From assembly GCA_028714255.1 (NCBI GenBank), contig JAQTMR010000020.1, positions 1-37,874 of the forward strand: 37,874 nucleotides of DNA, read 5' to 3'. A program made the translations under genes and the position numbers. The notes under the pieces were generated by a model. The model had not been told where the DNA came from. It saw only the letters and a program-made list of their open reading frames with translations, and did not search any database. Shown here piece by piece: positions 20,846 through 21,565 of this stretch. Source of the DNA: Phycisphaerae bacterium (GTDB lineage Bacteria; Planctomycetota; Phycisphaerae; Sedimentisphaerales; Anaerobacaceae). Each line of letters starts with the position of its first letter. Position 1 is the stretch's first letter.

Positions 20846-21565
20846 GATGCGGTATGATAGATGAAATTCGCAGATAGCTCAAAATGTTTTTTGAAAAGTT
20901 GACTTTTTTTGCTCTGTTAAAATGGGGGATTTGGGGTAGCATCATTTGCGCAAGTTGGCGCTGCGAAACATGCGCAAACTTACGGAAACTTACAATAATT
21001 TACCAAAACTTGCAGGAAATATTACAAAAGTGATACCAAACTTACACCAATTTTGCACCCCCCCTGCGCAAATGATCGCGCGGGGCGCAGACGACCGACG
21101 AGAGACGACAGACGACGAAAACCAACGGACAGGAAGGGGGAATTTTTTTAGCCACGAGGACACCAAGACACAAGGAAAAATTAACCACAAATTCACACGA
21201 ATAGACACAAATTTATTGAGCCACGAAAAAGCACAAAAAACATAGAGAAAATTAGACGCGGATTTCGCAGATTACGCGGGGAATTTTGGTGTTGACGGAT
21301 GAGGAGATAAGTGGAAATTTAAAAGTCAAACTGCAAAGTGCAAAATTGTGGAGCCGCTTCGCGGGGGTTTTGTTTTCTATTAAAAAGATTGTGGGGATTT
21401 AGGAAAGCGGGTAAAATGGGGTGAGCAACCGGGAGCGAAATACACATGATTGAGTTTTGTCGAAAAACTAAGATTTTCGTAGCGAAAATAAAAACTTTCG
21501 TTTAACCGTCAATCGGTACTTATTAACACAAATTACGCAGATTAAATATTTGGAAAGCGGAAATA
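20846..21565. other. Gene-free, repeat-rich intergenic region
   Basis: 720 bp without a believable gene. It holds the intact MITE-like element (20941-21076), a degenerate GACGA tract (about 21088-21120), several decayed tracts of the 'agccacgaggacacc', 'accacaaattcacacgaa' and 'cgcggatttcgcagattacg' types (about 21150-21285), a GAGCCGCTTCGCGGGGG segment (about 21351-21368), and a GATTTAGG...GGGTGAGCAAC stretch (about 21396-21430) that also appears at 1266-1292. The arrangement mirrors 823-1370. Confidence 0.75.
20941..21076 (+). mobile_element. MITE-like element, copy 2 (intact)
   Basis: 136 bp bounded by perfect 12-bp terminal inverted repeats, ATCATTTGCGCA (20941-20952) and TGCGCAAATGAT (21065-21076). 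The interior is free of open frames and aligns with 901-1078. Both copies are preceded by TAGC. No target-site duplication is obvious. Confidence 0.7.

Follow-up and report, generated by a model that had tools for sequence, protein, structure and literature searches.

The usual explanation for dispersed repeats of bacteria is that they are palindromes which a transposase moves, and the bacterial BOX elements are modular non-coding repeats of 100-300 bp. Among known kinds, two come close to the repeat described here: REPIN/BIME in organisation, and phased A-tract clusters in DNA texture. REPs and REPINs are defined in PMC3733652 and PMC3116915, respectively, and gene conversion was once proposed for REPs (Higgins 1988, as cited in PMC3116915 and PMC3733652). 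Phased A-tract clusters, the 'structural code' of E. coli and cyanobacteria, have been proposed to play a nucleoid or supercoiling role; in the papers concerned they are not a repeat family, and the cyanobacterial ones lie mostly in coding DNA (PMC4132750, PMC3940949).

The locus under study lies in a stretch of 37,874 nucleotides, which was analysed as a whole and is called the window. The 2.41-Mb genome of the window is referred to as G000, a congener as G001 and a fragmented relative as G002. The reported stretch belongs to a repeat that is scattered between genes and occurs, in many copies, in several genera of a single Phycisphaerae family. Like REPIN/BIME and the RAYT-associated, GTAG-tagged REPs, it is short, intergenic and multi-copy, has two end motifs flanking a less conserved spacer, carries a GTAG tag and often lies between convergent or co-directional genes. 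Unlike them, its end motifs are non-palindromic and different from each other, its interior is a helically phased A-tract array, and no cognate RAYT was found for it. With the phased A-tract clusters it shares some 100 bp of A-tracts in step with the helix, but it forms a discrete family of repeats whose ends are defined, whose units are specific to the species and whose copies are mosaic. It resembles MITEs and BOX elements as a modular non-coding repeat of 100-300 bp, but has no conserved terminal inverted repeat, and no partner transposase or target duplication was seen. No description of this combination of ends, phased array and interior dialects was found in the literature searched. The parts of the two copies in the window are as follows.

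20915 to 20940, + strand: 5′ module TGTTAAAATGGGGGATTTGGGGTAGC; variants of it precede most copies, and it is seen at the orthologous G001 locus L230
20941 to 20956, + strand: left-end motif ATCATTTGCGCAAGTT (family consensus ATCAWWYGCGCAAGTT)
20957 to 21057, + strand: interior A-tract array of 10-11-bp units in the AAACTTAC... dialect, with the T-tract AATTTTGCA at its end
21058 to 21069, + strand: right-end motif CCCCCCCTGCGC, with 21 sites in G000
21070 to 21125, + strand: type ii 3′ module (AAATGATCGCGCGGGGCGCAGACGAC...), one of three interchangeable modules
about 905 to 931, + strand: palindromic insertion TTCCGCCTTCGCCAAGGCTTCGCCGCG in the left end of the second copy; many copies are without it
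932 to 1071, + strand: second copy, with the left end ATAAATTGCGCATGTT (932-947), the array and the right end CCCCCCCTGCGC (1060-1071)
1072 to 1098, + strand: type i 3′ module ATTTGATTGATTTTTAATTAGCCACAG, after the second copy

The sequence-only reading had described positions 20941-21076 as a MITE-like element with perfect 12-bp terminal inverted repeats. The 12-bp ends of this copy, ATCATTTGCGCA (20941-20952) and TGCGCAAATGAT (21065-21076), are indeed exact reverse complements, the first seven bases of the type ii 3′ module (from 21070) supplying the remainder of the right-hand repeat. The limits set by these ends did not hold: the repeated unit extends past both, through GGG(G/A)TAGC on the 5′ side and through the 3′ module on the other. 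The second copy, which had been aligned at 901-1078, is real; its match to the 136-bp query runs over 142 columns at 937-1078 (79%, E about 1e-30) and is joined by the palindromic insertion, rather than being a plain 178-bp alignment. The orthologue of this second copy in G001 was located at L135:4006-4143. The stretch had also been said to have no coding capacity, and no evident gene was present, the only long ORF across the reported copy being a 99-aa TTG ORF from a mechanical, program-made list.

Other intergenic words were observed around the copies. A 15-bp word, TTGCCTAARTTAACA, occurs at 1191-1205 of the window and at many other loci, is frequent in G001 and G002, often lies 50-260 bp past an array and almost matches the 5′ module in reverse complement. 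An outer inverted repeat, TGTTAAnnTAGGCAA ... TTGCCTAARTTAACA, was considered as the boundary of the element and set aside, TTGCCTAARTTAACA being present also at array-free loci of G000 and G002; among the loci read, no such pair enclosed a transposase. The words AGCCACAGAGAACACAGAGTTCACAGAG and GTTTTGAGTTCTTAGTTTTTAGTT, with a rough 10-bp rhythm, are found at 21140-21260 of the window and in intergenic regions generally, and recur in G000 and G001.

The whole-genome search with the 136-bp sequence, as had been proposed, gave further copies, with 28 matches in G000 (E<=0.01). Complete copies, defined as those with both ends present, numbered 21 in G000 (from the loci read) and 13 in G001; the analysis as a whole covers few species, as draft MAGs in which the repeats were assembled from short reads. 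All follow one plan, in which a left motif GTAGCATCA-WWYGCGCAAGTT is followed by the A-tract interior and by a right motif (T-tract, C6-7, TGCGC), and one of three modules stands 3′ of the right end. The two end motifs differ from each other and are directional. The word GGG(G/A)TAGC precedes 17 of the 21 G000 copies, usually behind a TTAAAAT(A/G)GG-like word; counted as a GTAG-type tag before the left end, it was present in 17/21 copies of G000 and 12/13 of G001 (29/34 together) and in 0/4 elsewhere. Arrays without end motifs were also observed (L229, L140, L214, L219), indicating that an array does not require the ends.

The perfect 12-bp inverted repeat proved not to be a trait of the family. 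It was found in one of the 21 complete G000 copies, the reported one, and in none of the 13 G001 copies; the only inverted sequence common to the copies is GCGCA/TGCGC, and outward of GCGC, where the bases vary, the inverted match between left and right is 0-1 bp in most copies. The ends are two different motifs, and the perfect repeat in the reported copy is most readily taken as variable bases that happen to coincide. Nor is a position upstream of accessory gene clusters general: by a crude ORF-based gene call, convergent contexts were commonest (12), followed by divergent ones (6), the remainder being co-directional or at contig ends, and the copies showed a weak orientation bias and often lay 3′ of a gene. 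What persisted of the earlier description was an element without coding function that is dispersed in many copies and has conserved motifs at its ends, and for which no family was found in Rfam or in the literature searched.

The same plan was observed in several genera of the family, with interior units that differ completely from genus to genus (AAACTTACAC in G000, GGTAGAAATTGCTAAAAA in G001, AAAATTGCAAG in G005 and AAAAATGAGC in G020). The left-end pattern was present in 18 of 89 family genomes and the right-end pattern in 10 of 89, and the reversed-pattern control gave 0 in each case; across the order, the left motif occurred in 18/89 genomes inside the family against 4/72 outside it. Named family members are MAGs assigned to Phycisphaerae or to planctomycetes (G020 = JAUWAY01, G002 = CAIYOL01, G088 = JAGLSU01). 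In GTDB contigs the left motif was found in 39 stretches, against roughly 30 expected by chance (an estimate), and thus weight was given only to the Phycisphaerae matches and a wider spread of the motif was not adopted. Matches to the own dialect numbered 29 in G001 and at least 7 in the fragmented G002, and the G002 dialect had no match when searched in G000 and G001.

Some of the left-motif matches represent a different repeat or a promoter-like context. A related left motif in another setting, TTTTCGCATCAAACGCGCAAGTTCGTCCAATTGTAGAGG, is conserved across genera (loci L056, L061, L073, L076 and L083, of G001/G002/G015/G086), stands at some loci upstream of an ORF starting MGFDL.. and resembles a promoter, an operator or the end of another repeat. 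In G022:C297 (L084/L094, about 811-850), two right-end motifs lie head to head as CCCCCCTGCGCAAATGGTCAACCATTTGCGCAGGGGGG, with a similar GACCAAACGCGCAGGGG about 140 bp off. A left motif with an A-tract array of another dialect was seen at L187:2581-2791 (PLMU01000006.1, Phycisphaerales fen_1357), in a genome which may be outside the family.

Sequences flanking G000 copies were traced in G001 and G002, which placed 17 G000 loci in G001. Seven of these have an array at the orthologous site, in the same orientation in 7/7 (window 932, window 20941 with its orthologue L230, L158, L172, both L159 copies and L162), where about 29 dialect matches in G001 would make chance sharing a few per cent per locus by estimate. 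The G001 orthologue of the reported copy has lost the right end, and the end motifs are absent in G001 at the second L159 copy and at L162. The other 10 of the 17 loci have no array in G001, so that copies have also been gained or lost, and two loci (L163, L168) have an array in G002 and none in G001. Interior identity of the three fully paired orthologues was 0.58-0.595, against 0.59 for any cross-species pair and 0.56 for shuffles, and that of paralogues was 0.72 within G000 and 0.825 within G001. Distances among copies calculated from the left and the right halves correlated at 0.23 and 0.17, against 0.72 for random column splits; the half-distances being nearly uncorrelated, the copies are mosaics. 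Furthermore, near-identical interiors (window 20941, L154 and L155; 93%) sit in different 5′ and 3′ modules. Inherited position together with mosaic, genome-specific interiors is the pattern of concerted evolution, with targeted reinsertion as the alternative.

Such reinsertion belongs to a rival explanation, in which the repeat is a non-autonomous MITE- or REPIN-like element moved in trans by a transposase and strongly preferred sites are refilled by whichever lineage is active in each species; in an element shorter than the DNA persistence length, the two ends would be brought together through the A-tract interior. Curved interiors have been proposed to aid transpososome formation in ISY100 (PMC4132750), and the repeat is multi-copy and intergenic, with directional conserved ends and, ahead of most left ends in G000 and G001, a GTAG tag as in GTAG-tagged REPs (PMC3733652). 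Positions of which 7/17 are common to a congener are unlike newly moving elements, unless insertion is strongly targeted, and the single copy with the 12-bp repeat and the near-identical interiors with different 3′ modules also argue against this explanation.

The genome offers five Y1 (RAYT-like) genes as a possible source of movement, but these sit amid other repeats. Three (L036, L039, L040) were found among GTTAGC/GTTTAGC palindromes and two (L037, L038) among other repeats, and none of the five is a cognate RAYT gene flanked by the A-tract repeat; the nearest approach noted is a degenerate array some 530 bp away from L036. The palindromes flanking L036, L039 and L040 (e.g. GTTAGCCCCCAAG..CTTGGGGGCTAAC) form a separate REP system. 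Where paired, the exact end patterns in the draft genome of G000 are about 100-135 bp apart, and among the hits of the Y1-family search in this draft genome no transposase gene had these ends; the suggestion that a transposase still moves the element is not supported. REPs require end hairpins, which this repeat does not conserve (mean z -1.1, -0.35, 0.1), and mobilisation by RAYT through flanking REPs was not supported.

Empty sites with target duplications had also been proposed as a check, and no target duplication was recognised. The clearest comparison of an occupied with an empty locus, which speaks for mobility, is L160: two genes that are adjacent in G001 and G002 are separated in G000 by a 1.46-kb island with the element and several other repeats. 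The island (L160:2720-4185, G000:C9) holds several repeat families. This comparison shows gain or loss of a repeat island, not transposition of the A-tract element, and has no clean junction. Taken together, movement in trans is a rather unlikely explanation.

We then consider the A-tracts themselves. Their spectra peaked at 10.5 bp, with z 22 in G000 and z 24 in G001 against dinucleotide shuffles, and the period within the genus was 10.4-10.6 bp (10.4-10.5 bp for the G000 set), so that the A-tracts are in phase with the helix. In seven genomes the peak periods were 10.40, 10.55, 10.60, 10.20, 10.30, 10.55 and 10.15 bp despite differing unit sequences; G088 and G023 are weak small sets of two arrays each, and several arrays in this comparison had been selected with a scan set for periods of 10.2-10.8 bp; weight is therefore placed on the unselected G000 and the motif-selected G001 sets. 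In 380 kb of untargeted stretches, the 10.5-bp period gave a single call, which is a genuine G005 array, and no off-period array (8.5 or 13 bp) was found in the same 380 kb. A simple scan of the spectrum lacks the sensitivity to pick up the short A-tracts of G000. The end motifs are linked by an array of 8-13 helical turns with an A-tract in each turn, and the core lengths (89, 98, 108-111, 117-123, 129 and 139 bp) rise in steps of ~10.5 bp, with a best period of 10.5. By a wedge model, predicted curvature exceeded that of shuffles in 12/13 G001, 4/4 other-genus and 8/21 G000 copies, and that of the reported copy was not above shuffles (z 0.1).

A neutral degenerate tandem repeat of 10-11-bp units, shaped by slippage and ordinary recombination, with no selected function and an accidental period, would account for the likeness of adjacent units in G000 and G005 and for indels among copies of whole 10/11-bp units. 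It fits poorly with a period kept at 10.15-10.6 bp in seven genomes whose units differ, with a quantised end-to-end length, and with different end motifs conserved across genera, and we judge it improbable.

A transcribed RNA element, that is, a terminator, attenuator or small RNA working via structure, is the most improbable of the explanations considered. Both window copies fold better than shuffles (z -3.6 to -5.1) and copies often lie 3′ of a gene, as such an element would, but three G001 copies fold no better than shuffles (z 1.0, -1.4, -0.4), both-side changes were found in only 1 of 12 consensus pairs, with covariation almost absent, and the Rfam search gave no match. A 10.5-bp period is moreover a signature of DNA and not of RNA, and a structured RNA is not supported.

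We favour a dispersed DNA-architecture repeat that evolves in concert, probably by gene conversion. Its positions would be inherited while one copy overwrites the interior of another, for which RecA-type gene conversion among the repeats is the simplest means, as the mosaicism suggests; targeted insertions in a burst, with recombination afterwards, could mimic this. What follows homogenisation, curvature and protein binding included, we infer. Selection may, less surely, keep the helical phase; the array would then serve as a bent or phased scaffold that fixes the helical face on which the two end motifs meet their bound proteins, for which HU plus a putative end-binding protein are candidates, and the scaffold might form a local loop or a nucleoid anchor between genes. 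HU, encoded by one gene in G000, is a generic candidate. To the reading as a phased DNA scaffold, with helical spacing under selection and copies homogenised by gene conversion, we assign a probability of roughly one half. A more specific form, in which the selected trait is helical phase and not sequence, so that dozens of dispersed copies per genome retain their places and their 10.5-bp phasing and are repeatedly rewritten in sequence, genome-wide, into a new species dialect read by a putative pair of end-binding proteins, seems to us unlikely.

The contrast that matters is between copies at orthologous sites, which have no remaining sequence similarity, and copies within a genome, which are alike and recombine, with the helical spacing of the A-tracts persisting throughout. 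If the favoured reading is true, the family would be a natural setting in which to test whether selection can act on the shape of DNA independently of its sequence, and whether short dispersed repeats of bacteria evolve in concert, as was already asked of REPs in the 1980s.
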